From Bacillota bacterium (lineage in GTDB: Bacteria > Bacillota > Clostridia > Peptostreptococcales > Anaerovoracaceae), in assembly GCA_017397825.1 (NCBI GenBank), contig JAFQHT010000041.1, forward strand, positions 1 through 39,518: a DNA stretch of 39,518 nucleotides. The letters are read 5' to 3'. The translations under genes were made by a program, and so were the position numbers. This document shows positions 7,392 through 21,944 of this stretch, one piece after another. A model generated the notes under the pieces. It had not been told where the DNA came from. It searched no databases and saw only the letters and a list, made by a program, of their open reading frames with translations. Numbering within the stretch: position 1 is the first letter of the stretch; each line of letters starts with the position of its first letter.

Positions 7392-8450
7392 TTATTTCAG
7401 TCGTCTTTCCATCTGCTCAGGGTTGTCTGCATACTCAAGAGCGGTCTGGCGTGTAATCTTTCCTGCCTCATAAAGGCCTGCTATATACTGGTCCATTGAA
7501 ATCATGCCTTCGTCTCCTCCTGCAGCAATGGCCATATCAATCTGATGGCTCTTATTGTCGCGGATCATGTTTCTGATTGCACTGTTCACATGCATGATTT
7601 CAAATGCCGGAATCATGTTTCCGTCCACATCAGGAATCAGCTGCTGCGATACAACTGTACGGAGAATCATGCTCAGCTGAACACGGATCTGGTCCTGCTG
7701 TCCCGCCGGAAAAGCATCAATTACTCTGTCAATGCTGTTTACAGCACCTCTTGTGTGAAGTGTGGCAAAGAGCAGATGTCCTGTTTCTGCTGCGGTCATG
7801 GCAGTTCTGATTGTTTCCAGATCACGCATTTCACCAAGCTGGATTACATCCGGTGCCTGGCGCAGACATGCTCTCAGTGCGGAAAGATAGTCCGGTGTAT
7901 CCACAGCTATTTCTCTCTGACTCACAATACTCTTATTATTTCTGTGCAGAAACTCGATAGGGTCTTCCAGTGTGATTATATGGCAGCTGCGGTTATGGTT
8001 GATGCGGTCAATAATGCAGGCCTGAGTAGTGGATTTACCGCTGCCAGCAGTACCGGTAAAAAGTATCATTCCATTGGTTTCGCTGGCCAGGTCCATGACT
8101 TCGCCAGGCAGGTTGTACTCTCTCCAGTCAGGTATATCAAAACTTACTACGCGGATTACCGCAGCCATAGAGCCGCGCTGGCGGTAAGCGTTGACACGGA
8201 ATCTGGCCATCCCGGGCACAGCAAATGAAAAGTCATCGTCGCCTGCCTCTTCAAAAATATCTATGGAACGTCCTGCCATCTGATAAATCTGTCCGATAAG
8301 TTCTCTGGTATTATCCGGCATGAGCTTTTCATCTCCCATCGCAACCAGCTGGCCCTCTCTTTTTTCATGGACCGGTCCCCCTGCAACTATAAAAATGTCC
8401 GATGCTTCATGTTCAACTGCCTGCTGCAGGTATTTCATCAGTTCTGCCAT
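7392..8450 (-). CDS. pilT: PilT-type type IV pilus retraction ATPase
   Basis: The 352-residue protein has every box of the PilT/GspE ATPase family: Walker A GTAGSGKST (133-141), Asp box ITLEDPIEF (159-167), atypical Walker B VIQLGEMRD (202-210) and His box AETGHLLFATLHT (221-233). The N-terminus (MAELMKYLQQAVEHEASDIF) resembles the PAS-like N-domain, with ASDIF in place of the usual ASDLH. It forms a cytoplasmic hexamer that powers pilin disassembly. The RBS is AAAAAGGAGAAAAGTT. It lies in one operon with GspF and pilin-like genes; no PilB/GspE assembly ATPase is present, so PilT may have an unusual role or PilB may be elsewhere in the genome. Confidence 0.92.
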   Translation of the reverse strand: MAELMKYLQQAVEHEASDIFIVAGGPVHEKREGQLVAMGDEKLMPDNTRELIGQIYQMAGRSIDIFEEAGDDDFSFAVPGMARFRVNAYRQRGSMAAVIRVVSFDIPDWREYNLPGEVMDLASETNGMILFTGTAGSGKSTTQACIIDRINHNRSCHIITLEDPIEFLHRNNKSIVSQREIAVDTPDYLSALRACLRQAPDVIQLGEMRDLETIRTAMTAAETGHLLFATLHTRGAVNSIDRVIDAFPAGQQDQIRVQLSMILRTVVSQQLIPDVDGNMIPAFEIMHVNSAIRNMIRDNKSHQIDMAIAAGGDEGMISMDQYIAGLYEAGKITRQTALEYADNPEQMERRLK

Positions 8451-8468
8451 AACTTTTCTCCTTTTTCT

Positions 8469-8897
8469 CTATTCTCCGTCCCAGACGTTCAGATCTTCGT
8501 CAGCCTGCCAGTCAGTTGTGGACACAAGCTGCCATCTGAGAATTTTATATTCCTGCCCTCTGACTGCTGCCCTCACCTGAAGGCTCTGGGTGTCTGAAAG
8601 AGGACATGTGTATTCGTATATTTTTCTTCCCTGGTCGTCTGTCCCTGTCAGGCTGACACCTTCAGGAACTTCTCCCTGCCTCAGAGCTGCCAGAATGATT
8701 TCTGCCTGCCCGTCTGCTTCATACCAGGAAATCGTCTGCTGCACTGCCCTGTCTGCCAGACTCTGGTCTGCCTTCACTGTCGATATGGAAAGCACCGCAA
8801 ATACTGTCAGGCACAGTACCGCAAATATTACAAGAAGCGCACTTATGCCGGTCATAGGCATGGAAGCTTCCTGCCGGCTGTTTCTTCTTTTACTCAT
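8469..8897 (-). CDS. Pilus/secretion-operon one-helix protein (pseudopilin-like), unknown
   Basis: The start at ATG 8897 is chosen because GGAGGTGACGGCC precedes it; the frame is open further upstream but without an RBS. The 142-residue product has a polar N-terminus (MSKRRNSRQEASMPMTGISA), one hydrophobic helix at about residues 13-37 (TGISALLVIFAVLCLTVFAV) and a soluble, likely extracytoplasmic domain rich in acidic residues. No prepilin cleavage site is obvious. It overlaps the upstream gene by 8 bases, so the two are translationally coupled. It is most likely a minor pilin-like or assembly component of the adjacent system. The family is not recognised. Confidence 0.65.
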   Translation of the reverse strand: MSKRRNSRQEASMPMTGISALLVIFAVLCLTVFAVLSISTVKADQSLADRAVQQTISWYEADGQAEIILAALRQGEVPEGVSLTGTDDQGRKIYEYTCPLSDTQSLQVRAAVRGQEYKILRWQLVSTTDWQADEDLNVWDGE

Positions 8898-9267
8898 GGC
8901 CGTCACCTCCTTCGTGAGGCTCCTGCCAGAAAACCTGCAGTGCAAATATTTCTTTTCCTTCAGAGGTTGCCGCTGTTATAAGAGCACTTCCAAGGCCCAT
9001 AGTATTCACATCAAGTACCTCTGCCTGCAGAGCAAATCCGTTGGTATCAGGGGTTTTCATGCTTTCAATAACGGTCATATCGCCTTTTGACGATTTAATT
9101 AGTTCTGCTGCATTCTGAACCGTAAGGGCAGCCTCATCTCTTAAAGCAATCTGTTCAGACTGCTGATGCGACCAGATAAAAGCCTTAAGACACAGCCCTG
9201 CCGCCAGTGCAAAAATCAATATCATGATTACAAGTTCAATAAGAGCAAGAGGCGCTTTACTTTTCAT
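8890..9267 (-). CDS. Prepilin-like protein with atypical cleavage region
   Basis: The start at ATG 9267 follows GGAGGCCTCCT. The 125-residue product begins MKSKAPLALIELVIMILIFA. The run LALIELVIMILIF matches the type IV prepilin helix with Glu at +5 (LIEL), but the residue at -1 is Pro instead of Gly, so processing by PilD would be unusual. The hydrophobic N-helix is followed by a small globular part ending in VFWQEPHEGGDGHE. It overlaps both neighbours by a few bases, in the middle of the pil-like operon. It is probably a minor pilin or pseudopilin; the lost glycine may mean it stays membrane-embedded. Confidence 0.7.
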   Translation of the reverse strand: MKSKAPLALIELVIMILIFALAAGLCLKAFIWSHQQSEQIALRDEAALTVQNAAELIKSSKGDMTVIESMKTPDTNGFALQAEVLDVNTMGLGSALITAATSEGKEIFALQVFWQEPHEGGDGHE

Positions 9268-9763
9268 AGGAGGCCTCCTCTCCGCTGCGGACGGCAAGAG
9301 TCAGGGGAACAGGCTTTCCGTCCATGGTCACCTGAGCATAAAGCAGGGCGCCTTCCAGCGATAATTCAAGTTTTTCTGCAGGAAAAAGCCTGCTGCCAAA
9401 CTCCATGTCAGCAGTCATATCTACTGCTTCTGCGTCTGCAAAGTATTCCATAAGCCATCCGTCGTAGCAATATATCAATGTTTTGTATTCTTCTTCATCT
9501 ATGGTTTCTCCGATGACCAGTGCCGTGCTGCCGTCGAAGTTTTCTACGGCAATATTGTCACCTTCAGCTGCCTGACGTACTTTGGCTGCAATGTAGCCGG
9601 TACAGGTCCTGGTTTCGTAGGCCTGCCTGTCCATGGCAGTAAGATTGCTGTAACTTCTGGTTCCTGCAAAAAGGACTGCCAGCACGCAGACCGCAAAAAC
9701 CCCCAGCACCGCCAGTGCCATGAGGCCCGATATGTAGTTTTTGCTTTCTGCTGCTTTTTTCAT
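9257..9763 (-). CDS. Membrane-anchored DUF4860-like protein of the pil-like operon
   Basis: The 168-residue protein has a short polar N-terminus (MKKAAESKNYISGLMAL), one hydrophobic helix at about 12-34 (LAVLGVFAVCVLAVLFAGT) and a 130-residue soluble domain with conserved-looking motifs RTCTGYIAAKVRQA, YCYDGWLMEYF and FGSRLFPAEKLELSL. It resembles the Firmicutes family DUF4860, often found beside pilin-like genes, but that name is from memory and unverified. The ribosome binding site is weak, and the gene starts 6 bases after its upstream neighbour ends, so translation is probably coupled. Likely an extracytoplasmic structural or minor pilin-like part. Confidence 0.68.
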   Translation of the reverse strand: MKKAAESKNYISGLMALAVLGVFAVCVLAVLFAGTRSYSNLTAMDRQAYETRTCTGYIAAKVRQAAEGDNIAVENFDGSTALVIGETIDEEEYKTLIYCYDGWLMEYFADAEAVDMTADMEFGSRLFPAEKLELSLEGALLYAQVTMDGKPVPLTLAVRSGEEASYEK

Positions 9764-9769
9764 CAGAAA

Positions 9770-10096
9770 TTACCAATCTTTCTCAAGTACTGTTATGTCG
9801 GGCATCAGGTTTGAACCCTGAACCTCATAGTGGACGATATATCGTTCTTCGTCGATTATAACGCCGTAATGTTCTTCCAGATAATCAAGGTCCGGCGGAT
9901 ATATTCCTTCTGCTGCATAGCAGGCCGCCGATGCTCTTCTGAGTGCTTCCTCCAGCTGGATAAGCGCCTGCTCCTGCCTGCCTTCATCCAGATTGGATAC
10001 TGCTCCGAGAAAAAACACCAGCACCAATACAATCACTGCCGGCATCATAATTCTGCCTGCACCTTTAAAAAAGTTTCTTTTTCGTCTTATACTCAT
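9770..10096 (-). CDS. Small membrane-anchored pilin-operon protein, unknown
   Basis: The 108-residue protein starts by GGAGGCAGCAC-ATG. A basic N-terminus (SIRRKRNFFKGAGR) precedes one hydrophobic helix (about 16-34) and an exported domain containing ALRRASAACYAAEGIYPPD and a short C-terminal strand region ending LEKDW. The stretch ACYAAEGIYPPDLDYLEEHY resembles the alpha/beta start of type IV pilin headgroups, where small residues and a YP motif follow the N-helix. The class III signal is not canonical. It lies between gspF/pilC and the DUF4860-like gene. A pilin-like component is the best guess. Confidence 0.65.
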   Translation of the reverse strand: MSIRRKRNFFKGAGRIMMPAVIVLVLVFFLGAVSNLDEGRQEQALIQLEEALRRASAACYAAEGIYPPDLDYLEEHYGVIIDEERYIVHYEVQGSNLMPDITVLEKDW

Positions 10097-10106
10097 GTGC
10101 TGCCTC

Positions 10107-11153
10107 CTAGTTTATGGCTGCCATGATGTTAACCAGCGGCAGCATTACAGAAAGGAGAATGAGCCCGATAAGTACAGATGTAACCACCACAAGAGCCGGT
10201 TCCACCCTGCCGATTTTTTCTGCCAGGGAATTTTCACCGGTTTCAAGAAGCCTGCCGGCGATTTCTTCCATTATGGTGTCTCCGCTGCCGCGTCTCATGC
10301 CCACCTCAAGGAGGCGGCATTCTGCCGGCGGCAGTATGTTATATTTTTTAAGGCTGGATACTAAACCTGCTCCTGCCCCTATTTCTCTGCTGCATTCTCT
10401 CAGTGCCTGCGCCATGGACGGAACTTCATCCATCATGTCTGCAGCAAGGCCGAGAGCTTCTTCAGCCTTAAGGCCGCTTCTCAGCCCCATGGCAAGAACC
10501 TGTGCAGCTCTTGCAGTGTTAATCTGAGCTGATACTCCTCTTGTTCCCCTGTGTCTGTTCCACCAGCTGAGAACTTTGCCTCTGAAACCGGAAGACGCTG
10601 CAAATACGCCCAGGCCCGCTAAGGCCACCGCCATAATCACGCAAAGTGCCGGCATAGCCTTTCCCAGAACCTGCCCAAAGGCAAGCAGACCTCCCGCAAT
10701 ACCCGTCAGGCTGCTGCCCATCTGGCCGTAGACCTGATCAAACACCGGCAGAACTTTTACAAGAAGCACTACAATAACCACAAGCATTATAAGGAGCAGT
10801 ACTGCCGGATAAAGGAGCGAAGTCCTGATCTGGCGTTCCATTCTCAGCCTTTCCTCGTAATAATCTGCAAGGGCAGTCAGCGCTTCTTCCATGCGTCCTG
10901 TTCTTTCTCCCACTTCAAGAAGTCCGCTCACATAAGCAGGAAAGGCGCCGCTCTCTCTGAAAACTGCCGGAAGGCCTTTTCCTTCATCAGAACCGGCTGC
11001 CATGGCCATAAGCAGTTCTTTAGTTTCCTTGTCACTTTCTTCCTCTGCCATGAGGGTAAATCCGTCACCGGTTGCCACCCCCGCTTTTAGCAGCATGGCA
11101 AGGCCCAGACAAAGACCGCTTATTTCTTCATTTGTAAACTGTTTTTTTTTCAT
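10107..11153 (-). CDS. Type II secretion / type IV pilus inner-membrane platform protein (GspF/PilC family)
   Basis: The 348-residue protein starts at ATG 11153 (GGTGATTTTT upstream); an in-frame GTG three codons earlier is less likely. Two T2SSF domains are visible: the first (about residues 12-130) with LAMLLKAGVATGDGF and LEVGERTGRMEEAL, the second (about 215-330) with RAAQVLAMGLRSGLKAEEAL and ECRLLEVGMRRGSGDTIMEE. Three hydrophobic segments (about 112-135, 155-185, 325-345) match the family topology. It is the membrane platform that couples the ATPase to pilin assembly. It opens the pil-like operon and lies immediately downstream of a terminator. Confidence 0.9.
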   Translation of the reverse strand: MKKKQFTNEEISGLCLGLAMLLKAGVATGDGFTLMAEEESDKETKELLMAMAAGSDEGKGLPAVFRESGAFPAYVSGLLEVGERTGRMEEALTALADYYEERLRMERQIRTSLLYPAVLLLIMLVVIVVLLVKVLPVFDQVYGQMGSSLTGIAGGLLAFGQVLGKAMPALCVIMAVALAGLGVFAASSGFRGKVLSWWNRHRGTRGVSAQINTARAAQVLAMGLRSGLKAEEALGLAADMMDEVPSMAQALRECSREIGAGAGLVSSLKKYNILPPAECRLLEVGMRRGSGDTIMEEIAGRLLETGENSLAEKIGRVEPALVVVTSVLIGLILLSVMLPLVNIMAAIN

Positions 11154-11172
11154 AAAAATCACCGCTGTATTT

Positions 11173-11204
11173 TAAAAAAACAGCGTCGCCTCCGGGACGC
11201 TGTT
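11173..11204 (-). terminator. Terminator/attenuator between the transglutaminase gene and gspF/pilC
   Basis: On the minus strand AACAGCGTC pairs with GACGCTGTT over an 8-base loop and is followed by TTTTTTT. It lies 18 bases beyond the transglutaminase stop codon. No convincing promoter was found between it and gspF/pilC, so it may act as a partial terminator inside a longer operon. Confidence 0.85.
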
Positions 11205-11221
11205 AAAATGTCATAATAATT

Positions 11222-12223
11222 TTAATAGAAGTATTTTGCAGTATAATTACTTCCATCGCCGATGTACTTCATAATGGATTTGCTCTGCTTGGAAGAAGAC
11301 GCAAATGTAGGGTCCATTCTCTGCCAGTGCTCACCATCAAAGTATACAACGCCTTCAATCCAGCCTTCTCCGTCAACATACACACTGATCCATGCATGAT
11401 AAGCTTCGCCGGCATATCCTACTACCAGCTTGACAGGCACGCCCTGGCTTCTGAGCATTCCGGCCATCACTGCCGCATAGTCGAAACAGATACCTTTTTT
11501 TGCCTTCAGCACCTTATCAAGATCCGGCAGATAACCGGATTTGACATTCTTTGCCTTTTCCTTATCATATTTAAAATTCTTCACTACATAATTATATACC
11601 TTTTCCACCTTGGCAAGCTCAGTCTTTGATTTTTTGCAGAGGCTGGCTGCTTTAGCCACGGTGTTTTCAGCCTTGGAATAATCAACGTACTGATTCGGGC
11701 GAAGGAAAGGTGCGAACTCGTCAGTCAGCTCTGCTCCAAATGATACAGAAACCTTGGCTGCGTACTTATTACCTGATGTATTCAGAAAAACGGTTGCCTG
11801 ATATGCACCATTTCCGTCAGAAAGAGGAAGCACTGTCCATTTTTTTGCTTTCAGATTATATGTGTAAGTAGTTTCAGGCCCTTTTACCTGAACTTTTATT
11901 TTTTTGTCGGTCTTTTTAAGGTACTTCACCATTATATAACCGTCTTCTGTATTGGAATAATCAATGACAGCATCTGCCGTTTCTTTTACTGCTGTTCCAG
12001 AAGCCTTACATTCTGCAACTTCAGGTTCTGCAGCCGGTGACTCGCTGAGAGCCACAGCCTCATCTTCAATTATAATTTCTTCCACAGATACAGCATCAAC
12101 AAACTCTGACTGTCCTGCGTCTGCTCCGGCATCCTGCACCCCGCAGCCTGCAAGAAGCCCTGCGCAAAGCACTGCCGTGAGCAGAATCGCTGTTATTTTA
12201 TTAAAGTGTTCTGTTCTTTTCAT
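11222..12223 (-). CDS. Transglutaminase-like lipoprotein
   Basis: The 333-residue protein has a lipoprotein signal: positive start (MKRTEHFNK), hydrophobic core and lipobox LLAGC with Cys27. A low-complexity acidic linker and a beta-rich segment (about 85-165) precede a transglutaminase-core domain with a complete triad: Cys246 in KGICFDYA, His276 in YHAWISV and Asp304 in MDPTF. Such exported proteases/transglutaminases cleave or cross-link surface proteins or peptidoglycan peptides. It is 20 bases after the sortase gene in the same direction, so the two are co-transcribed and presumably act on the same surface structures. Confidence 0.88.
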   Translation of the reverse strand: MKRTEHFNKITAILLTAVLCAGLLAGCGVQDAGADAGQSEFVDAVSVEEIIIEDEAVALSESPAAEPEVAECKASGTAVKETADAVIDYSNTEDGYIMVKYLKKTDKKIKVQVKGPETTYTYNLKAKKWTVLPLSDGNGAYQATVFLNTSGNKYAAKVSVSFGAELTDEFAPFLRPNQYVDYSKAENTVAKAASLCKKSKTELAKVEKVYNYVVKNFKYDKEKAKNVKSGYLPDLDKVLKAKKGICFDYAAVMAGMLRSQGVPVKLVVGYAGEAYHAWISVYVDGEGWIEGVVYFDGEHWQRMDPTFASSSKQSKSIMKYIGDGSNYTAKYFY

Positions 12224-12243
12224 ACAGGATACCCTCCTTTATA

Positions 12244-13086
12244 TTATTCTTCTGCAGCCAGAACTGCCTGCACTATCATTCGTTTTTCGTGACCATTCCC
12301 CGTACATGTGGAAAGTGTCAGTATATGATCTGAAACGGACGGAACTATATCCGTCTTTATTTCAGACATTTCTATGGACTTGTCGATGAACTTCTGCTTC
12401 AGATCTTCATCTTCAATATCAATCCAGAAAGCATGCCCCTCCACGCTTACTTCATAAGCTGCGAATATGTCATATCTTCTGACGCCCTTTTCTGTAGCTA
12501 TATATACGTAAGGAGCTGACGACCAGAAACTTTTCTTTACATATTTTTTAAGGTTGCTGAACATGGTTGTGTTCTTCATATTGTGACCATATATAATGGT
12601 ATTGAACTCGCTGAGCTTGTTGCTGCATTTAGCTTCAAGGAAAATTGAACCCATGGTGTTCCACTTTTTATCCCAGGTCCGGTTAAGATAATATGAATTG
12701 TCGTCACCGTCAAGAAGCGGATATGAAATATCTGCGCCCGGAATAATTATCCAGCCCATTACATCTTTATTCACTTTTTGTAGAGCATCCAGATTGAGAT
12801 TCTTAAGATTGTCAATGCTCACCTTCGGAAGCGGATTAGTCTTTTTTTCTTCCTTTTTTATGTCTTTATCTTCCGGAACATCTTCATTATCCTCAGGTTC
12901 TTCTTCAGGCAAATCACTCTGTGTATCTGTATTTTCCAACGATTCCAGACCTGCAAGCTTTTCCACATCATCGTAGGTCTGCTCACCTTCTCTGTACTCA
13001 GTCAGTTTTTTTATAACCATCCCGCCGCTTACTAAAAATACTATCAGAAAGACGGCAATGAGGCTTATTCGGATACTCTTTTTCAT
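12244..13086 (-). CDS. Class B-like sortase
   Basis: The start at ATG 13086 (MKKSIRISLIAVFLIVFLVS) follows GGGAGATTATGC; 280 residues. An N-terminal membrane anchor (about 5-26) is followed by a long acidic linker (about 40-85) and the sortase barrel. Catalytic residues: His168 in IYGHNM, Cys261 in LTLSTCTG and Arg269 in GHEKRM. The order DNSYYLNRTWD, MGSIFLE, YGHNMKNTTMFSNL and TLSTC is that of class B sortases. It covalently anchors proteins with an LPXTG-like motif to the cell wall. A likely substrate is the CnaB protein at 13979, which carries APKTG. It is divergent from that transcription unit. Confidence 0.92.
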   Translation of the reverse strand: MKKSIRISLIAVFLIVFLVSGGMVIKKLTEYREGEQTYDDVEKLAGLESLENTDTQSDLPEEEPEDNEDVPEDKDIKKEEKKTNPLPKVSIDNLKNLNLDALQKVNKDVMGWIIIPGADISYPLLDGDDNSYYLNRTWDKKWNTMGSIFLEAKCSNKLSEFNTIIYGHNMKNTTMFSNLKKYVKKSFWSSAPYVYIATEKGVRRYDIFAAYEVSVEGHAFWIDIEDEDLKQKFIDKSIEMSEIKTDIVPSVSDHILTLSTCTGNGHEKRMIVQAVLAAEE

Positions 13087-13123
13087 GCATAATCTCCCTT
13101 CCAAAACAGGGTATAACTACCTC

Positions 13124-13251: not shown

Positions 13252-13307
13252 GAGCCTACAAACGAACCAAACACGCTGAAAAGCGAAACCGAAAGGAGGT
13301 GCCCGAG

Positions 13308-13736
13308 ATGAAAGACACAAAGTGGGGCAACGAGTACAGACTAACCACTGTCTGCATTGACTCATATAAAAATGGAGAACTTACAGGCCGTTTTTATAAC
13401 CCACACCTTGGCGAAGGTAAATCTTTCAGAAGTCTTATTCAGTTTCTGAAAGGAATGGAAGACCTTCTGGATGATATGAACTTCCCGCAGTCTTTCACCG
13501 CTAAAAGGTCCTTTGCCTCACTTCCTGAGCACAGACAGGGAAGCCCTCCCGAAAGTCACTTGCGACACGGGACACTGGCAACCTTCGCGGTACGAGTTAT
13601 TTTCCGTCAGAACGCCAGCTGGCAGGGATCAGTCACCTGGCTTGGTGAAGGAAAAGAGCAAAGTTTCCGCAGTGTTCTGGAGTTGGTTTTGCTGATGGAC
13701 AGCGCCCTGTCTGAAGGCGCACCTGAAGCAGTGTAA
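13308..13736 (+). CDS. Unknown 142-aa protein with internal duplication, upstream of the riboswitch
   Basis: It starts at ATG 13308 behind AAAGGAGGTGCCCGAG. Two halves look like repeats: GEGKSFRSLIQFLKGMEDLL (about residues 39-58) and GEGKEQSFRSVLELVLLMDS (about 116-135), each after a strand-rich segment (GELTGRFYNPHL; ASWQGSVTWL). No signal peptide or membrane segment is present, so it is probably cytoplasmic. The family is not recognised. It precedes the c-di-GMP riboswitch and adhesin on the same strand with no terminator between them, so it is probably co-transcribed, and it may be a small regulator or assembly factor for the surface system. The repeat suggests a pseudo-symmetric fold. 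Confidence 0.72.
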   Translation: MKDTKWGNEYRLTTVCIDSYKNGELTGRFYNPHLGEGKSFRSLIQFLKGMEDLLDDMNFPQSFTAKRSFASLPEHRQGSPPESHLRHGTLATFAVRVIFRQNASWQGSVTWLGEGKEQSFRSVLELVLLMDSALSEGAPEAV

Positions 13737-13742
13737 AAATTC

Positions 13743-13805
13743 AGGGATAAAAAAGGACCAGACAAGTTGTGACTGGCAACCACAATCCCTAGTGTGAAAC
13801 CACAC
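13743..13805 (+). other. Structured spacer RNA between the 142-aa gene and the riboswitch
   Basis: AGGGAT (13743-13748) can pair with ATCCCT (13785-13790), enclosing a possible TTGTG/CACAA stem; a GTGTG-AAAC-CACAC hairpin follows at 13792-13805. There is no T tract, so this is not a terminator. It may separate the two cistrons, be a processing site, or be chance. Confidence 0.35.
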
Positions 13806-13822
13806 ACAAATCAAATAATCTG

Positions 13823-13941
13823 AAATATTTGAAAAAGGCAAACCTGCCGAAAGGCAGGGACGCAAAGCCAGGGAGCTAAATCCTCATGACAATAAAGTAA
13901 GACACCATGGCGAGGACATGCCCGCCCGGCAGCCAGTATTT
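13823..13941 (+). promoter_or_regulatory. Cyclic-di-GMP-I (GEMM-I) riboswitch aptamer
   Basis: The conserved GEMM core is present: GGCAAACC (from 13837), a CCTGCC-GAAA-GGCAGG hairpin with the GNRA tetraloop, then GGGACGCAAAGCC. A second helix (TCCTC/GAGGA) carries a UAAA/CAU tetraloop-receptor-like bulge after GGGAGC. P1 forms from AAATATT (13823-13829) and AGTATTT (13935-13941). The G at the start of GGCAAACC, aligned with Vc2 G20, suits c-di-GMP more than cGAMP, but this alignment was made by eye. The RNA senses c-di-GMP and controls the adhesin that begins 38 bases downstream. Confidence 0.93.
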
Positions 13942-13977
13942 CGATTCCCAATCCACAAAACGAAAGGAGATCGAAAT
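13938..13977 (+). promoter_or_regulatory. Riboswitch expression platform: Shine-Dalgarno-sequestering hairpin
   Basis: ATTTCGAT (13938-13945) is perfectly complementary to ATCGAAAT (13970-13977), which lies between the AAAGGAG ribosome binding site (13963-13969) and ATG 13979. The first arm overlaps the 3' strand of aptamer P1 by four bases (13938-13941), so P1 and this hairpin exclude each other. Ligand-stabilised P1 should free the ribosome binding site: a translational ON switch. Confidence 0.75.
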
Positions 13978-13978
13978 C

Positions 13979-16741
13979 ATGACTAAAAAATCAAGAAAAG
14001 GAAGAAAAGGGTTCATCATCCTTTTAGCGATGATGCTTATCCTCACAATGATCCCAACAACAGCTCTCGCAATGGACGAGCTGCCAATCGGAGATGTTCC
14101 TCCGGTTGAACAGCCGGTTGAAGACGAACCACCGGTTGAAGGTGAACCGCCGGTTGAAGGTGAACCGCCGGTTGAAGGCGAACCGCCGGTTGAAGGTGAA
14201 CCACCGGTTGAAGGTGAACCACCGGTTGAAGGTGAACCACCGGTTGAAGGTGAACCGCCGGTTGAAGATGAACCAGCAGTTGAAGGTGAAGAACCTGTTG
14301 AAGATGAACCAGCAGTTGACAACGAACCGCCTGTTGAAGAAAAGCCGATGATGATGGCAAAGAAGCCTGGTCAGCAGCAGTGGCCTCAGAAGCCGGAAAA
14401 AACACCTCTGGTATCCTGGTTCGTAAGATTTGACGGTGCCATCGTTGATACTTCCGGTAATGTAAGTTCACATGACACAAGCCTTTACACACCGGCACTG
14501 AGAACATCCGAAATCGTTGAAGAAGACGGTTATGACATTGAAGACGAAATCTACAGAACCGGCGGCGGATGGGGCGGCTACGGTCACGTTGGTGCTCTCA
14601 CTGACAACGCTTCCATCGAAGCTCTGGCAACTCAGAATGCAGCAAGAGGCTACTACATTGATGATTTCCTCGGCGAATATGATGATATCGATGCACTGGT
14701 AGACTGGCTTGAAGACAACCCAAGACAGAGAATTTACTTCAACGACCACAACATCACAGCAGATCTCAAGGCAAATCCTGACAAATACGACATCGAATGG
14801 TACGTTTTCAAAAGTGAACACACAAAGGGTTCAGACTACGATGAAAACAACTGCTACCACATCGATGGTGTAGTAGTAATGAGACCTGAAACTACAGAAG
14901 ACTTAATAATCTCCAAGACTTTCATCGGTGCTGATGCAGCAGCAATTGCAAAAGCAGAAAGAGTATTCTCTATCGACGTTACTGATGAAGCCGGCGAACC
15001 AGTAATCACACTGCAGACTACTTCAACAGTGGGCGGTGACTACAACTATCTGGTAAGCAAAATCACAGGTGCAAACGTTGTCGGAGAAGACACAGTATCC
15101 AAAACATACACATGGGTGCTTACACTTCCTAAGGGTGAATACACTGCATCTGAAAGCACAGCAGCTCCTGACGGCTACACAATGGTCGCTGAAATCCTTT
15201 CCGATACAGCAGACATCACAAGTGGCGCAGGTGAAATTGTATTCACAAACATTTATACAGCTATACCTCCTAAGGTAGGTAACCTTGAAATCACTAAGAC
15301 AGTAGCTGAAGGTTACACAGTTCCTGCAGCAGCAACTTTCGCAGTAAAGGATGCTGATGGCAGAACAGTAAGAACTTTCACTTACGCAGACTTCGTTGAC
15401 GGAGTTTACACAGTAAGAGACCTGGGTATCGGTTACTACACAATCGAAGAAACAGGCGCTGAAATCGAAGGTACAATCTGGAACTACAGTGTGGAATACG
15501 CAGACGGCGAAGTAGCTGAAGTAGTTAACAAAGGAACAGCAAAGGTTGAAGTTTACAACGGATATGAACTTTTACCTCCTCCACCTCCTCCAGCACCTGA
15601 ACTCGGTGACGCAGCAGTAAGAGTATATCTGGACGGTCAGTTAGTTCAGAGAGACTTAACATCCTACGTTGGACTTGAAGCAGGCACAGCAATCCTTCTC
15701 GGTGAAGCTGAAATCGCTGCTTACCAGCCTGCAGCTCCTGAAAACAAGACTGTAAGCTACGACGAAGCAGCAGCTAACGTAACTTCCGGCGTTATCGAAG
15801 CATACAAGGTAATTCTCCTTGACCTCTACTTCGTAACAGAAGATATCGAGCTTCCACCTCCACCAGTTGAATACACAAGCCTGGCAGTTCAGAAGGTATG
15901 GAACCTTGAAGCAGGCGGCGAACCAACAGATTATGTAAAGGTGCAGCTTTACAAAGACGGTGAACCTCAGGGTGCAGTTAAATTAGACGCAGCTAACAAC
16001 TGGTCCTACACATGGGAAGAACTCGAAGTTGGCTACACATACACTGTAGTTGAAGTAGCAGTTCCTGATGGCTTCACAGCAACTCAGGAAACAGTAAACG
16101 GCGTAGTTGTTATCACTAACACTTACGTTCCGCCTACTCCACCTCAGCCACCGGTTGAACCTGAATACACAAGCATCACAGTTCGTAAGGCATGGGTTCT
16201 CGACAATGGAGGCGAAGCAGTTCCTGTACAGGTTCAGCTTTACAGAGATGATGTTCCATACGGCCAGCCGATTGAACTCAGCGAAGCTAACCAGTGGACA
16301 TGCACTTGGGACGGACTTCTTCTGGATGGTTCCTCCTACGGAATCAAGGAAATCGAAGTTGAAGGATTCACAGTAACATACGGAGAAGATGAAACAGGCA
16401 CAATCGTTATCACAAACGACGATATCGCCAAGGAAGAACCTCCGGTTACTCCTCCACCAGTTGATCCGCCAGTTAATCCACCAGTAGATCCACCTTATTA
16501 CCCACCTTACTATCCGCCATATGAACCACCGGTTGAACCACCAGTAGTAATCGAAGAACCTGAAGTTCCGTTAGTGGACGAACCAGTAATCGATGAACCG
16601 GTTGAAATCGAAGAACCTGAAGTTCCTCTGGCAGAAGCTCCAAAGACAGGCGACAACATGATGACATGGGCAATGATCGCATTACTCTCATTAGTTGGAC
16701 TCTTAGCATTAGGAAGAAGAAAAAATGAAACAAATAACTAA
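13979..16741 (+). CDS. Sortase-anchored CnaB-domain adhesin with hexapeptide repeats
   Basis: The start is ATG 13979, behind AAAGGAGATCGAAATC; an upstream in-frame ATG lies inside the riboswitch. The 920-residue protein has a signal peptide (residues 1-31, ending TTALA), 12 tandem hexapeptides of the EPPVEG type (50-121), a unique N-terminal domain rich in Asp and aromatic residues (about 135-300), CnaB-like beta domains (about 305-530 and 630-810, with Lys in VQKVW, Glu in TVVEV and Asn in ITNTY as for isopeptide bonds), a Pro-rich wall spacer and a C-terminal APKTG (887-891) with a hydrophobic helix and RRK tail. It is a cell-wall-anchored stalked adhesin or pilin-like protein, probably displayed by the nearby sortase. 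Codons are strongly biased to GAA and ACA, which suggests high expression. It is controlled by the c-di-GMP riboswitch. Confidence 0.92.
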   Translation: MTKKSRKGRKGFIILLAMMLILTMIPTTALAMDELPIGDVPPVEQPVEDEPPVEGEPPVEGEPPVEGEPPVEGEPPVEGEPPVEGEPPVEGEPPVEDEPAVEGEEPVEDEPAVDNEPPVEEKPMMMAKKPGQQQWPQKPEKTPLVSWFVRFDGAIVDTSGNVSSHDTSLYTPALRTSEIVEEDGYDIEDEIYRTGGGWGGYGHVGALTDNASIEALATQNAARGYYIDDFLGEYDDIDALVDWLEDNPRQRIYFNDHNITADLKANPDKYDIEWYVFKSEHTKGSDYDENNCYHIDGVVVMRPETTEDLIISKTFIGADAAAIAKAERVFSIDVTDEAGEPVITLQTTSTVGGDYNYLVSKITGANVVGEDTVSKTYTWVLTLPKGEYTASESTAAPDGYTMVAEILSDTADITSGAGEIVFTNIYTAIPPKVGNLEITKTVAEGYTVPAAATFAVKDADGRTVRTFTYADFVDGVYTVRDLGIGYYTIEETGAEIEGTIWNYSVEYADGEVAEVVNKGTAKVEVYNGYELLPPPPPPAPELGDAAVRVYLDGQLVQRDLTSYVGLEAGTAILLGEAEIAAYQPAAPENKTVSYDEAAANVTSGVIEAYKVILLDLYFVTEDIELPPPPVEYTSLAVQKVWNLEAGGEPTDYVKVQLYKDGEPQGAVKLDAANNWSYTWEELEVGYTYTVVEVAVPDGFTATQETVNGVVVITNTYVPPTPPQPPVEPEYTSITVRKAWVLDNGGEAVPVQVQLYRDDVPYGQPIELSEANQWTCTWDGLLLDGSSYGIKEIEVEGFTVTYGEDETGTIVITNDDIAKEEPPVTPPPVDPPVNPPVDPPYYPPYYPPYEPPVEPPVVIEEPEVPLVDEPVIDEPVEIEEPEVPLAEAPKTGDNMMTWAMIALLSLVGLLALGRRKNETNN
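14126..14341 (+). repeat. In-frame 18-bp tandem repeat (12 units)
   Basis: Eight near-perfect copies of an 18-bp unit of the form GAACCGCCGGTTGAAGGT (14126-14269) are followed by four degenerate ones up to 14341. Copies differ by a few silent bases. The multiple-of-three unit allows stalk length to vary without breaking the frame. Confidence 0.92.
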
Positions 16742-16843: not shown

Positions 16844-18043
16844 TTATGCACCCGGTTCCAGAGGTTTTACTGTATATGTAAGCTCTGCAGGTGAATGAGG
16901 ATACTGGCGTTTGAATGACTTGATTATACGGTCACATACCATGCAGCTGTTTTCGTAGTTGGCCAGATGAAGCATGATGATAAACTGTGATGAACTGCAC
17001 TGGCTTACCACATCTCCACGCCGCAGGTTGATGCGGATCTGTTCCTGCAGATTTTCCATTACAGTATTGTGGCTGCGCTTTGAAAGGGCTTTGCCGTGTT
17101 CCCCTGCCACATTTATCATGCAGATATGCACTGCCGCTCCGGTTCTTTCAATGAGACGGGCTGTTGAATAATGGAGCACTTTGAAAAAATCATACTCGCA
17201 TACCAGTGCGCCGCTCAGTGCTTCCGTCTCTTTCAGCTGTTCCTGCACCACTTCCATAGGCACTGCCTTTTCGTTGGAAGTCTTGATTGCTTCATAATAT
17301 ATATTGCGGATTTCTTCTGACGGAAGTACGCCGAAGTCAGCAAGAAATATTTTACTTATCTTTTCATAGGTAGAAATAACTTCTCTGCGTTCGCCCATTG
17401 CCAGCAGGTTTGTCATCAGATGAAGATAAACTTCTTCGCTGTATGGCTCAATCTTCAGAGCTTTATTGCAGATATCAACTGCCTCCTGCCTGCGCTGGCG
17501 TTCTTCAAGCATGGCCAGAGTGTCTTTTACTATATTAATGTAGATTTCGTGGTAGTGAAGTGCCACTGATCTTGACCAGCTTTCGGCAGAAAGTTTTACG
17601 AGAAAATCATCATTATATAATGATATTGCTTCAAGCCAGCATTCCAGTTTCTTTTCGTCAGTATCCGCGGCATCCCCTTCTTTGCAGAATTTGTCAAACT
17701 CTCTTACATCGATGGAAACTTCAATTTCCGGACTTACAATGTAACCGCCGCCCTGATGAAGAATCAGGTTGTGGCCTGCATTCTCGTCAAGCTTATTAAG
17801 CAGCGTACGCACTCTGTGGAAAGTTGTTCTGAGTGCATTCTGCGGATTATCCTTTTCTTCATCGTCTTCCCAGAGCAGGTCGATGAGTTCTTTCTGAGAA
17901 ATGGTACGTCCCTTGTGGTAAAGAAGGTACGCTAAAAGCAGCCATACCTTACGTGTACGGCTTGTACTGTCGTCGATTTTCTTTTCACCAAGCTGAACTG
18001 AAAAACTGCCCAGCATCTGTACTTTGAATTCTTCTTTTTTCAT
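16844..18043 (-). CDS. SARP/BTAD-type transcriptional activator with degenerate GGDEF-like C-terminus
   Basis: The 399-residue protein has an OmpR-type winged HTH (about residues 5-100: LLAYLLYHKGRTISQKELID, NALRTTFHRVRTLLNKL), a bacterial transcriptional activation (BTAD) domain of helical repeats (about 105-255) and a C-terminal domain (about 280-395) that looks like a GGDEF fold. LRRGDVVSQCSSSQFIIMLH aligns with the usual RxGDxxxRxGGDEFxxLL pattern, but the catalytic motif is replaced by SSSQF (350-354). It cannot be an active diguanylate cyclase; the domain may bind nucleotide or mediate dimerisation. It is divergent from the HD-GYP/GGDEF gene and next to the riboswitch-controlled adhesin, so it may regulate either of them. 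Confidence 0.85.
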   Translation of the reverse strand: MKKEEFKVQMLGSFSVQLGEKKIDDSTSRTRKVWLLLAYLLYHKGRTISQKELIDLLWEDDEEKDNPQNALRTTFHRVRTLLNKLDENAGHNLILHQGGGYIVSPEIEVSIDVREFDKFCKEGDAADTDEKKLECWLEAISLYNDDFLVKLSAESWSRSVALHYHEIYINIVKDTLAMLEERQRRQEAVDICNKALKIEPYSEEVYLHLMTNLLAMGERREVISTYEKISKIFLADFGVLPSEEIRNIYYEAIKTSNEKAVPMEVVQEQLKETEALSGALVCEYDFFKVLHYSTARLIERTGAAVHICMINVAGEHGKALSKRSHNTVMENLQEQIRINLRRGDVVSQCSSSQFIIMLHLANYENSCMVCDRIIKSFKRQYPHSPAELTYTVKPLEPGA

Positions 18044-18157: not shown

Positions 18158-18197
18158 TGTGGTAATAATTACAGCATTCACAGGAAGGAGCACCGCC

Positions 18198-21100
18198 ATG
18201 AAACTCAAGGACACTCTTTTAATAGTAGGAAAAAGCAAAGAAACACGCAGCACCCTGCACAGGATTTTTTCTGATTCCTACAATATTATTGAATCCACCA
18301 CACATGAACAGGGATTATTCTTGTTTAAAGAAAATATGAACTGCATTGCCGCTGTGTTGCTTGATATCAAGCCACCTAAATCACGGCGTGAATCTCTTAC
18401 AGCCAGAATGCGCAGTATCCCGGGCAGCGAAAATGTTCCGATTATAATTCTTTCAGATCCCGGTGATACTCAGCAGGAAATAAGAGGATATGAATACGGT
18501 GCTTCCGATGTGATTTTCAAGCCTCTGAATGAGACTACAATTTATCACCGTGTCAAGATACTTACCGAGCTTGCGGTTCACAGAAATCATCTGGAAGTAC
18601 TGGTACAGGAGCAGGCTGATATAATGCGTTCTTCCAACGAATCCATGGTGGACGTGCTTTTCACCATCATCGAATACAGAAGTATTGAAACGGGTAACCA
18701 TGTAATGAGAATCCGTGAGTACACACGTATACTTCTGGAAAAAGTAATGGAAACATATTCTGAATATGGTCTGACCCCTGAAGATGTTGCTTCTATAGTC
18801 AGTGCTTCTTCACTTCACGACATCGGCAAGATTTCCATTCCGGACAGTATCCTCAACAAGCCGGGCAGACTTACCGATGAAGAGTTTGAAATTATGAAAA
18901 GTCACACAACCAGCGGCGCCCGTATTCTGGAAAACCTCAATGAAGTAGGAGACCGTAAGTACCTGCGTTATGCATATAATATATGCCTTTACCATCACGA
19001 ACGCTGGGACGGAGGCGGCTATCCTGAAGGGCTGGTTGGCGATGAAATACCTATCTGCGCTCAGGTAGTGGGCATTGCAGATGTTTATGATGCCCTGACT
19101 TCAGACAGAGTCTATAAAAAAGCTTATCCTCATACGAAAGCAATAAATATGATACTTAACGGTGAATGCGGTGAATTTTCACACAAAGTACTGGAGTGTC
19201 TGAAAAAAGTCCGTGATGAGTTCGAAAAGATACACCTGGCACTCAATGATACTCCTTCAGATATAAAAAATACACCTGAGGATCTGACTACACCACTGCC
19301 TGCACCATCCTATCAGCTTCAGAAAGTAGATGCTCTACAGTCAGTACAGGTAAAATACCAGACTCTCCTTCACTATGCCGGTGCAACCGTAATTGAAACT
19401 GACCTTATCAGCGGTGTGTACCATGTGGTTTATAACCCTAATCCGGACTTTTATTTTTCCGGGCAGAAAGGATCAATTGCTGAAGCACTTCAGGATATGA
19501 TGAATACATCTGTTCACCCTGAAGACCGTGTGGATGCAGCTGCTGTCATAAGTGAAATCAAGGAAAAAATCACAGGTCACGGAACCCGTAAGGTAATAAC
19601 TTCCCTCCGCGTGTATATTCCTTCTTCACGCAGTTATATTACATACAAGGTAACTTACCTTCACATCAAGGACAACATTCCGGGCACTGCTGCAGTAATG
19701 ATAGTTTTTGAGCCGGAGGCTTATGCACCGTCTCTGCCTAATGATATAGAACGCTCTTTTGAATATGATGACGGCGGATTATACTTTTACAACCTTATCG
19801 GAAGTACAATCGTCTGCGAAAACAACAGTGACTTCAGAATTGTTTATGGTTTTGATAATCTCTTTACTCTTCTTGGCTATACTTCAGACGAAATTGAAAA
19901 GAATTTCGGAAACAATCTGATGGAAATGGTCCTTCCTGAAGACCGTCCTTATCTTCTGAAACAGATTGACGAGCAGCTGGCTGAAGGTAATCTTCTGGAG
20001 CTGGAATACCGGATGATGACAAAAAACGGTTCTTCCGTCTGGGTAATCAACAAAACCCGTATGCTTGAAGATTCCAGCGGAAAAAGTTATTTTTACAGTT
20101 CTCTTTCGGATAATACAAGAAGCAAGAAGATTCAGCACCAGCTCCAGCAAGAACTTGAAAGAAGCCGCCTGATTATCAACCAGTCAAATGACATAATCTT
20201 CGAACTGGACATTGAAACAGACCACCTGTGGTGTTCTGACCAGTGGGAGGAACGCTTCGGCCACAAGGCGCTTACAGACAATTATACTGAAAAAGTATAT
20301 AATTTATCCCACATTCATCCTGATGACATGCCGAAGATGAAAGAAGGAATCAGCAGACTTGTCAGCGGAGAAGCGCACATTGAAGTTAATGTGCGTATAG
20401 TGAATTCTGACGGCATTTATACGTGGAATCAGATACGTGCAACTTCCAAAAAAGATGAAACTGGCAAAGTCCGCAAGGCCATCGGCGTAATCGTGGATAT
20501 TGACAGAGAAATCCAGTCCATACAGCAGCTTCAGAAAAAATCTGAAATGGATTCCCTTACAGGACTTTATAATAAAGAGGCAACTCAGAAGCGTATAACA
20601 GATCTGCTCGCTGACAGGAGCCCGGATAAAAAATCTGCTCTTCTCATTCTGGACCTGGATAATTTCAAATCCGTAAACGATACTTACGGCCACCTTTTCG
20701 GTGATAACGTGCTTATGAAAACTGCGATGGAAATACGTAAATATTTCAGAAGCAGTGATATTACCGGCCGTATAGGCGGCGATGAATTTGCTGTATATAT
20801 GAACGGATTTGAAGGAGATAACATCATCCATACCCGCTGTCAGTTCCTTGTGGACAGCCTCAGTGAACTGTACAAAGAGATGCTTCCTGATATCAATGTG
20901 TCCTGTTCCATTGGTATTGCAATGATACCTGAGCACGGAGACAGTTTCGTAGAAGTGTACAACAAAGCAGACCAGGCACTCTATCAGGCTAAAAGAAACG
21001 GCAAAAACTGTTACTTTATATATGATGGCAAAGTATCTGTTACTGCTCAGAACCTTGTTACAAGCATAAGTGATACTATCGACTCCAATGAGCAGCCAGG

Positions 21101-21944
21101 CTTTGCAAGCAACAGTATTCTTTATTACCTGTTCCAGACGCTGTACGAATCTACTGATAAGTATGAAACTATCCGTATTATTCTGGCTGAAGTAGGACGC
21201 CGCATGAATGTGAGCCGCGTATATATTTTTGAAAGTAATGACGAGCGTACAGAGCTTTCCAACACATTTGAATGGTGTAATGATGGTGTTGAACCGGAAA
21301 TTGACAATCTTCAGAACCTTAACTATATTGACGGAGAAATCGCCGGATACAATGAAGTATATAACGAAAGAGGAATTCTCTACTGCACAGACATATCCAC
21401 TCTGGAGCCCCGCTTCCGTGCTGTACTTGAGCCGCAGGGAATCAAATCACTGCTGCAGTGTGCGATTTATGACAAAGGTGAATTCTGCGGCATGATTGGT
21501 TTTGATGAGTGCCATCTCAACCGCAACTGGACCCAGGAACAGATTGACATGCTAACCCTTCTTGCTCGTGCAGTTGCCCTGTTCCTGCTTAAAGAACGTG
21601 AGCACGAAAAGATTCAGCTCATGAGTGAAAATCTTTCCACAGTGCTCAACAATCAGGATGCATGGGTTTATGTAATCGACCCTGAAACTTTCCAGCTCAG
21701 ATATATCAATCAGCGTACCCTTGATATTGCCGGAGACATAAAAGAAGGTGATTACTGTTACAAAACTATGATGAACAGAGATACTCCATGTCCTGACTGT
21801 CCTTCACTCAGACTGGACAAAGAAAAACATGCAGATGCTGTAATCAACAACCTGTATTTTAACCTCAATGTACGCTGCCGTGCTGCAGAAATTACATGGA
21901 ACGGTGAAAAAGCATGTCTGATTACATGCCACGAACTTAAGTAA
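18198..21944 (+). CDS. REC/HD-GYP/PAS/GGDEF/GAF bifunctional c-di-GMP turnover protein
   Basis: It starts at ATG 18198 behind GGAAGGAGCACCGCC; 1248 residues. A receiver-like domain (1-125) keeps Asp56, Ser86 and Lys108 but lacks the acidic pair at the end of strand 1 (VGKSKE), so metal-dependent phosphorylation is doubtful. The HD-GYP domain (about 145-345) is intact: HDIGK (207-211) and HHERWDGGGYP (266-276). PAS-like regions follow (about 370-500, 530-650, 660-775). The GGDEF domain (about 775-940) has an intact GGDEF at 860-864 and an inhibitory-site RxxD (Arg851-Asp854) at the right distance. A GAF domain (about 975-1130) and a terminal PAS-like domain with the Cys-rich motif DTPCPDCPS complete it. 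It has no membrane segment. It should both make and hydrolyse c-di-GMP, with sensing by PAS, GAF and REC. Confidence 0.93.
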   Translation: MKLKDTLLIVGKSKETRSTLHRIFSDSYNIIESTTHEQGLFLFKENMNCIAAVLLDIKPPKSRRESLTARMRSIPGSENVPIIILSDPGDTQQEIRGYEYGASDVIFKPLNETTIYHRVKILTELAVHRNHLEVLVQEQADIMRSSNESMVDVLFTIIEYRSIETGNHVMRIREYTRILLEKVMETYSEYGLTPEDVASIVSASSLHDIGKISIPDSILNKPGRLTDEEFEIMKSHTTSGARILENLNEVGDRKYLRYAYNICLYHHERWDGGGYPEGLVGDEIPICAQVVGIADVYDALTSDRVYKKAYPHTKAINMILNGECGEFSHKVLECLKKVRDEFEKIHLALNDTPSDIKNTPEDLTTPLPAPSYQLQKVDALQSVQVKYQTLLHYAGATVIETDLISGVYHVVYNPNPDFYFSGQKGSIAEALQDMMNTSVHPEDRVDAAAVISEIKEKITGHGTRKVITSLRVYIPSSRSYITYKVTYLHIKDNIPGTAAVMIVFEPEAYAPSLPNDIERSFEYDDGGLYFYNLIGSTIVCENNSDFRIVYGFDNLFTLLGYTSDEIEKNFGNNLMEMVLPEDRPYLLKQIDEQLAEGNLLELEYRMMTKNGSSVWVINKTRMLEDSSGKSYFYSSLSDNTRSKKIQHQLQQELERSRLIINQSNDIIFELDIETDHLWCSDQWEERFGHKALTDNYTEKVYNLSHIHPDDMPKMKEGISRLVSGEAHIEVNVRIVNSDGIYTWNQIRATSKKDETGKVRKAIGVIVDIDREIQSIQQLQKKSEMDSLTGLYNKEATQKRITDLLADRSPDKKSALLILDLDNFKSVNDTYGHLFGDNVLMKTAMEIRKYFRSSDITGRIGGDEFAVYMNGFEGDNIIHTRCQFLVDSLSELYKEMLPDINVSCSIGIAMIPEHGDSFVEVYNKADQALYQAKRNGKNCYFIYDGKVSVTAQNLVTSISDTIDSNEQPGFASNSILYYLFQTLYESTDKYETIRIILAEVGRRMNVSRVYIFESNDERTELSNTFEWCNDGVEPEIDNLQNLNYIDGEIAGYNEVYNERGILYCTDISTLEPRFRAVLEPQGIKSLLQCAIYDKGEFCGMIGFDECHLNRNWTQEQIDMLTLLARAVALFLLKEREHEKIQLMSENLSTVLNNQDAWVYVIDPETFQLRYINQRTLDIAGDIKEGDYCYKTMMNRDTPCPDCPSLRLDKEKHADAVINNLYFNLNVRCRAAEITWNGEKACLITCHELK

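Follow-up and report, generated by a model that had tools for sequence, protein, structure and literature searches.

How might a second messenger control a large surface adhesin whose gene stands behind another, much smaller gene on the same strand? The question is raised by a 39,518-nucleotide (nt) stretch of DNA, hereafter the window (positions 1 to 39,518 of contig JAFQHT010000041.1, assembly GCA_017397825.1), from a Bacillota bacterium of the family Anaerovoracaceae. Between a small gene (13299-13736) and an adhesin gene (13979-16741), both on the + strand, lies an aptamer of the cyclic di-GMP (c-di-GMP) type. Our computational analysis leads us to conclude that this element is very probably a c-di-GMP-I riboswitch with a translational ON platform placed between two cistrons.

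The aptamer and the strand it shares with the pre-start hairpin

A covariance search with Rfam placed an RF01051 (c-di-GMP-I, GEMM-I) aptamer at 13827-13937 on the + strand: it scored 68.5 bits against a gathering cut-off of 35 (E = 1.6e-11), the model aligned end to end (1-87), and no other Rfam family exceeded its gathering threshold in the window. The original prediction, made from the sequence, of a complete GEMM-I aptamer is thereby borne out. The GAAA tetraloop and the conserved core (GGCAAACC ... GGGACGCAAAGC) are present in the alignment, and the core columns are conserved across the aligned leaders of related cassettes. The window copy carries the GGC core of RF01051, the first G of which is the determinant of c-di-GMP specificity; judged by its sequence it is a predicted c-di-GMP binder.

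P1, the outer helix of the aptamer, pairs 13822-13829 with 13935-13942 and extends past a bulge through 13818-13820 with 13943-13945, so that its 5' strand spans 13818-13829 and its 3' strand 13935-13945. The latter, which we call the switch strand, also contributes the 5' arm of a hairpin (13938-13977, + strand) in front of the adhesin start, in which 13938-13945 pairs with 13970-13977 and 13948-13949 with 13966-13967. The two helices have 5 nt in common, or 8 nt with the P1 extension, rather than the four bases first counted, and are mutually exclusive. A hairpin covering the ribosome-binding site (RBS) had been claimed. It is present in the sequence and in the minimum free energy (MFE) folds of three stretches (z = -3.65, -2.69 and -2.28), but its main 8-bp helix pairs the spacer between the Shine-Dalgarno sequence (SD; AAAGGAG, 13963-13969) and the ATG, not the SD itself, which is enclosed in the apical loop and paired mainly at 13966-13967.

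The ligand-free fold of the window leader prefers this RBS hairpin: its duplex with flanks amounts to -12.1 kcal/mol (-10.7 kcal/mol for the hairpin alone) and the P1 duplex to -7.1 kcal/mol. Forcing P1 to form costs 7.8-8.3 kcal/mol, which is within reach of the binding energy of a tight aptamer. With P1 forced, the modelled cost of opening the stretch from SD to ATG falls from 10.7 to 3.0 kcal/mol, in keeping with the proposal that ligand should open the RBS. Only 41 nt separate the aptamer from the ATG, and a consensus scan of 13300-14300 found no terminator-like site on the + strand. Terminator control of the Bc2 or Clostridioides difficile type (see below) was rejected on this absence of a + strand terminator between aptamer and gene. 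A further small hairpin in the MFE fold (GUGUG/CACAC, 13792-13805, + strand) lies upstream of P1 and is a possible insulator.

The open reading frame (ORF) behind the switch, P0001, begins with the ATG at 13979 and encodes 920 aa with a signal-peptide-like start and PPVEGE repeats (approximately 14107-14340). It matches Cna_B (76.1 bits), SpaA and the LPXTG anchor model TIGR01167 (19.2 bits against a cut-off of 15.9, the motif reading APKTG), while LPXTG_double stays slightly below its cut-off (45.4 vs 48); Pfam gave no match to an A domain, for collagen or other ligand binding. On these matches, and with the signal peptide called by a simple rule, P0001 is a secreted protein and the sortase-anchored CnaB adhesin that had been proposed.

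Conservation of both helices among relatives

Two sets of relatives were compared. The first came from 247 genomes of the same family, own genome included, 74 of which carry RF01051. From roughly 150 among the matches listed, 124 were taken, and the 123 for which DNA was retrieved were examined and classed by a custom rule (terminator-like hairpin before the start versus nearby start): 45 have a terminator-like hairpin ahead of any start, in 26 (from 21 genomes) a start follows 26-60 nt past the aptamer with no such hairpin, and 52 belong to other or unresolved classes. Twenty-four nearby-start leaders were tested, the window's two copies included and two with starts 11-12 nt past the aptamer excluded, and both helices paired better within than between sequences (2/20,000 permutations for P1, 0/20,000 for the RBS helix). 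The second aptamer of the own genome (C42:691-802) has the same platform ahead of another secreted protein. By eye, a terminator and an extended -10-like TGCTATAAT lie upstream of it, an indication that the switch can also occur by itself; the AU-rich hairpin found just upstream in the window's MFE fold was, again by eye, not seen in this copy.

The second set was reached through the small gene upstream. Its product, P0002 (145 aa with an assumed GTG start, an ATG being possible at 13308), is uncharacterised: it has no NCBIfam match, all its Pfam matches are below cut-off, and no PDB sequence matches it up to E 1. It contains the motif FRQNASWQG, and a possible internal repeat aligned over only 25 residues. 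Homologues 80% and 57% identical occupy the same place in genomes G001 and G018. Named genomes were scanned with an alignment of this protein, blind to the riboswitch, and the best 80 of 169 loci were retained; by record titles most belong to Oscillospiraceae and other Clostridia, and ruminant gut metagenomes are the source of many. The two sets are not independent, as they have in common the window's two copies and eight places (G001, G018, G073, G074, G127, G173, G186 and G207).

A c-di-GMP-I-type aptamer lies directly 3' of the small gene in 45 of the 80 loci (41 RF01051, 4 RF03167), where about 0.01 such loci would be expected by position alone, assuming three aptamers per genome. The scan covered 79 of the 80 loci, and a looser threshold applied to L208 and eight negatives added none. 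From the stop codon of the small gene to the aptamer core there are 36-109 nt in 39 of 44 loci; the 515-nt gap of L137 is an artefact of reading just 2 codons ahead of a stop, and both L137 and L151 (209 nt) belong to the 45. A start codon follows 31-52 nt past the aptamer in 44 of the 45. The remaining locus, L163, was excluded from the leader tests since its contig ends before the start. With the window's two copies this makes 46 leaders, 45 of them distinct, the identical pair L131/L132 being counted once. Four loci (L156, L176, L199 and L204) match RF03167 (c-di-GMP-I-GGC) best and have an RBS platform of the same kind: natural aptamer variation on one expression platform.

In the second-set leaders each helix again pairs better with its own partner strand than with those of other leaders: -6.27 vs -5.09 kcal/mol for P1 and -10.65 vs -8.53 kcal/mol for the RBS helix, each at 0/20,000 permutations. 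The result holds after thinning to 39 dissimilar leaders (1/10,000 and 0/10,000, respectively), and neither of the control strands, the neighbouring 22 nt on the upstream side and the opening 27 nt of the coding sequence, showed any such effect. Among 55 GEMM-I matches with a distant start P1 is kept (1/10,000), as expected of any aptamer, and pre-start pairing is absent (8,096/10,000). A chance hairpin is rejected by these swap tests together with the negative controls. At least 4 nt are common to both helices in 44 of the 45 distinct leaders, the RBS duplex outweighs P1 in 42 of the 45, and P1 eases RBS opening in 45 of the 46, by at least 3 kcal/mol in 42. When aligned columns were compared, 80.9% of RBS-helix cells were paired, as against 75.5% in shuffles and at most 54.6% when the helix was slid. 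There were 28 double-change cells vs 12.5 in shuffles (0/500), and three of five covariation measures stood at 0/500. Mutual exclusion of the two helices is thus maintained in relatives by the swap tests and forced-P1 folding, and the RBS helix by covariation as well; the column-wise count for P1 did not follow (see below).

What follows the switch is also alike. The simple rule assigns a signal-peptide-like N-terminus to each of the 46 downstream ORFs, and of nine downstream proteins picked from 44 and scanned with Pfam, eight have surface-type domains (VWA, Cna_B, MucBP, SpaA); the ninth, L179, has DUF5979 only.

Genes around the switch

The small gene is probably the first cistron of an operon with the adhesin. 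No terminator was found between small gene and aptamer in any of the 43 loci examined (a set that excludes L137, L163 and the window's two copies), and promoter-like sites before the aptamer are not in excess in these loci (2/43 vs 1.95 expected; the best score in the window is 7 of 12). The stretch upstream of P1 folds to -4 kcal/mol or lower in 27 of 43 leaders with room for it, with sequences that differ; in 3 of 46 the gap is too short. In L123 the small protein is followed by a transglutaminase gene and in L125, in a shorter single-domain form, by a large signal-peptide ORF; no RF01051 match is listed at either place, so the protein may be tied to surface proteins with or without the switch.

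At some loci the neighbours of the small gene include sortase, BTAD-regulator, transglutaminase and T2SSE/T2SSF genes. The window has a divergent sortase gene next to it (12244-13104, - strand; PF04203, 53.0 bits), an orientation that recurs in G001 and G021. This gene belongs to a stretch of the - strand (7392-13104) whose domain matches identify a T2SSE ATPase, a T2SSF protein, a DUF4860 protein, a transglutaminase and the sortase. Parts of this neighbourhood reappear near the small gene among 85 loci compared (T2SSF in 21 and T2SSE in 18, a few places being counted twice).

Beyond the adhesin gene lies a SARP/BTAD regulator (16844-18043, - strand; PF03704 and PF00486) with a degenerate GGDEF-like C-terminus: SSSQF stands at the place of the active site, and the RxxD motif is kept, exactly five residues upstream in 17 of 17 aligned homologues. 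These motifs make it a candidate c-di-GMP-binding transcription factor; among the matches listed in the literature on such candidates the word BTAD is absent. It is followed by a REC-HD-GYP-PAS-GGDEF-GAF protein (18159-21944, + strand) with intact GGDEF, RxxD (RSSD) and HD-GYP motifs. This is the only GGDEF match found in the own genome, which, in an assembly of 82% completeness, gave no EAL or PilZ match. In G018 the sole GGDEF lies 5.7 kb from the sole GEMM-I. A full-length homologue of the enzyme adjoins the cassette in 9 of the 80 loci (4-kb flanks), divergent in eight and co-directional in one, and all nine are among the 45 with an aptamer. Each of the nine genomes, which were chosen for the adjoining enzyme, contains a single GEMM-I and shows no EAL. 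In seven of them there is exactly one GGDEF match, located inside the adjoining enzyme (coordinates compared by hand); the other two have 3 and 2. Among 61 relatives, GEMM-I occurs in 31 of 53 with GGDEF vs 0 of 8 without (Fisher p = 0.002).

Mechanism, rival explanations and meaning

At low c-di-GMP, 13938-13945 would pair with 13970-13977 and the ribosome-binding region of the adhesin gene would be closed. With c-di-GMP bound, P1 would close and capture the switch strand, the RBS would open, and the adhesin would be translated, exported and then anchored, a step for which the neighbouring sortase may be responsible. The small gene, probably on the same mRNA, would be expressed regardless of ligand, and the HD-GYP/GGDEF protein, whose gene lies 4 kb away, is the probable source of the c-di-GMP. 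The likeliest arrangement, we infer, is a single mRNA that yields the small protein at all times, with ligand licensing the adhesin.

Several observations weigh against this picture. Some concern the switch of the window itself: the SD is mostly looped and only partly paired in the RBS hairpin, and a weak GAUUCCC/GGAGAUC hairpin (13943 onward, -4.6 kcal/mol) can hold the GG of the SD with P1 formed, so that the ON state may be partial. Others come from the relatives. In 15 of 45 leaders at most one of the four core bases of the SD is paired, and RBS opening is not eased by P1 in L201. On two of the five measures the RBS helix does not clearly exceed shuffles (29/500 and 415/500), and the RNAalifold consensus of the whole leader contains neither the outer P1 nor the RBS helix. 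P1 on MAFFT columns does not exceed shuffles either (56.8% vs 56.2% paired, 191/500), probably owing to register shifts among the P1 strands; because the strands vary in register on these columns, we relied on the register-free swap test. Co-transcription rests on the lack of a terminator and of a good promoter, that is, on absence of evidence. Finally, over 22 genomes, GGDEF counts are one in 8, two or more in 12 and none in 2; Oscillibacter valericigenes (G280) has 16 GGDEF matches, and G127 and G173, both outside the 61-relative set, carry the cassette with no detected GGDEF.

Of the rival explanations, the one that survives best is an ON switch that acts mainly on mRNA survival or Rho-type polarity, ribosomes on the open RBS protecting the message. 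It fits the lack of a + strand terminator-like site and the position of the switch: in 43 of 43 loci a translated gene precedes it and no terminator intervenes, a setting in which untranslated RNA could be exposed to Rho or RNases. The same RBS switch would still be required, however, and nothing in the sequence calls for this effect separately, so it extends the translational reading rather than replacing it, and both may hold; as the principal mode of action we think it possible, though on balance unlikely. Far less probable is a pre-start hairpin that acts as a constitutive or temperature-dependent brake on translation, uncoupled from an aptamer that acts otherwise or decays. The strength of the hairpin alone, the excess of the RBS duplex over P1 in most leaders and the missing column-wise P1 covariation would all suit such a brake. 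It leaves unexplained that the aptamer core is conserved and that the switch strand is kept complementary, sequence by sequence, to the far-upstream P1 strand, which the neighbouring 22 nt are not. A translational OFF switch, with ligand favouring the closed RBS, is slightly more doubtful still. Class I switches can be OFF in C. difficile, and the Vibrio cholerae pair is reported to respond oppositely (PMC6366702), but here P1, which the aptamer needs, removes the very strand that closes the RBS, and forced P1 lowers the cost of opening in all leaders save one; the OFF direction was rejected on this ground. A different cyclic dinucleotide such as 3',3'-cGAMP is just as improbable a ligand: the core does differ in some cassette aptamers (AGC in L137) and the variant family RF03167 accounts for 4 of 45, yet the window aptamer has the GGC core and a GGDEF protein is encoded nearby.

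The translational ON reading can be set beside known systems. A precedent exists for a class I ON switch ahead of a CnaB/LPXTG adhesin: the Bc2 RNA before cap/cbpA in the Bacillus cereus group acts by antitermination (PMC4933901, PMC7423583). The likeness extends to the c-di-GMP-I aptamer and to the signal peptide, Cna_B repeats and LPXTG anchor of the adhesin. Bc2, however, uses a terminator/antiterminator and is described as the 5' untranslated region of cap, whereas the present switch has a paired RBS region and no terminator that we could find, and stands close behind another gene. Thus the direct route from c-di-GMP to attachment that had been put forward is supported in its design by computation, but a class I ON route to such an adhesin is not new as such.

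Vc1-gbpA of V. cholerae is also a c-di-GMP-I element without a terminator before the gene of a colonisation factor, and its reporter expression drops when c-di-GMP is lowered; that study notes no anti-Shine-Dalgarno and leaves the mechanism open (PMC4744006), whereas the RBS-occluding strand is plain here. The C. difficile class I switches belong to the same aptamer class and also to Clostridia, but are described as OFF via transcription termination (PMC6366702, PMC11477304), where we predict translational ON; these descriptions agree with the premise that clostridial GEMM switches are mostly of the terminator type. In the same species, class II switches before CD2831 and CD3246 let c-di-GMP turn on surface adhesins too, with another aptamer class and transcriptional ON control (PMC11477304). 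In B. thuringiensis, the class I switch Bc1-mcpE is reported to alter how far the RBS is exposed, but it has dual terminators and its RBS is trapped, not freed, with c-di-GMP (PMC11218506). No description of an intercistronic translational ON arrangement was found in the literature covered, for the translational version or for Oscillospirales, subscription journals being largely outside that coverage and the papers being seen in excerpts. What is new here is the placement of the switch between two genes of a probable operon.

More tentatively, the locus may form a self-contained, near-minimal c-di-GMP circuit: an HD-GYP/GGDEF hybrid (the only GGDEF of some genomes), an intercistronic translational ON GEMM-I, an uncharacterised, co-transcribed small protein, a sortase, one large adhesin, and a SARP-type regulator whose degenerate GGDEF may read c-di-GMP. 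We hold this below an even chance, and a little lower than at first because the enzyme adjoins in a minority of the aptamer loci (9 of 45), not in most. If it is true, the messenger would mainly license one surface protein rather than coordinate a lifestyle. Seven examined genomes, each with one GGDEF match and one GEMM-I at a single locus and with no EAL, offer an unusually simple setting for the question of whether a cyclase can act on one local target.

The literature examined offers little clear anatomy for c-di-GMP-I platforms of the translational ON kind, and 46 natural leaders in which one strand pairs with either P1 or the RBS region make the mechanism directly testable. The design recurs in many related gut bacteria, sometimes beside the predicted signal-making enzyme, and may thus represent a small attachment circuit that can be put to the test.

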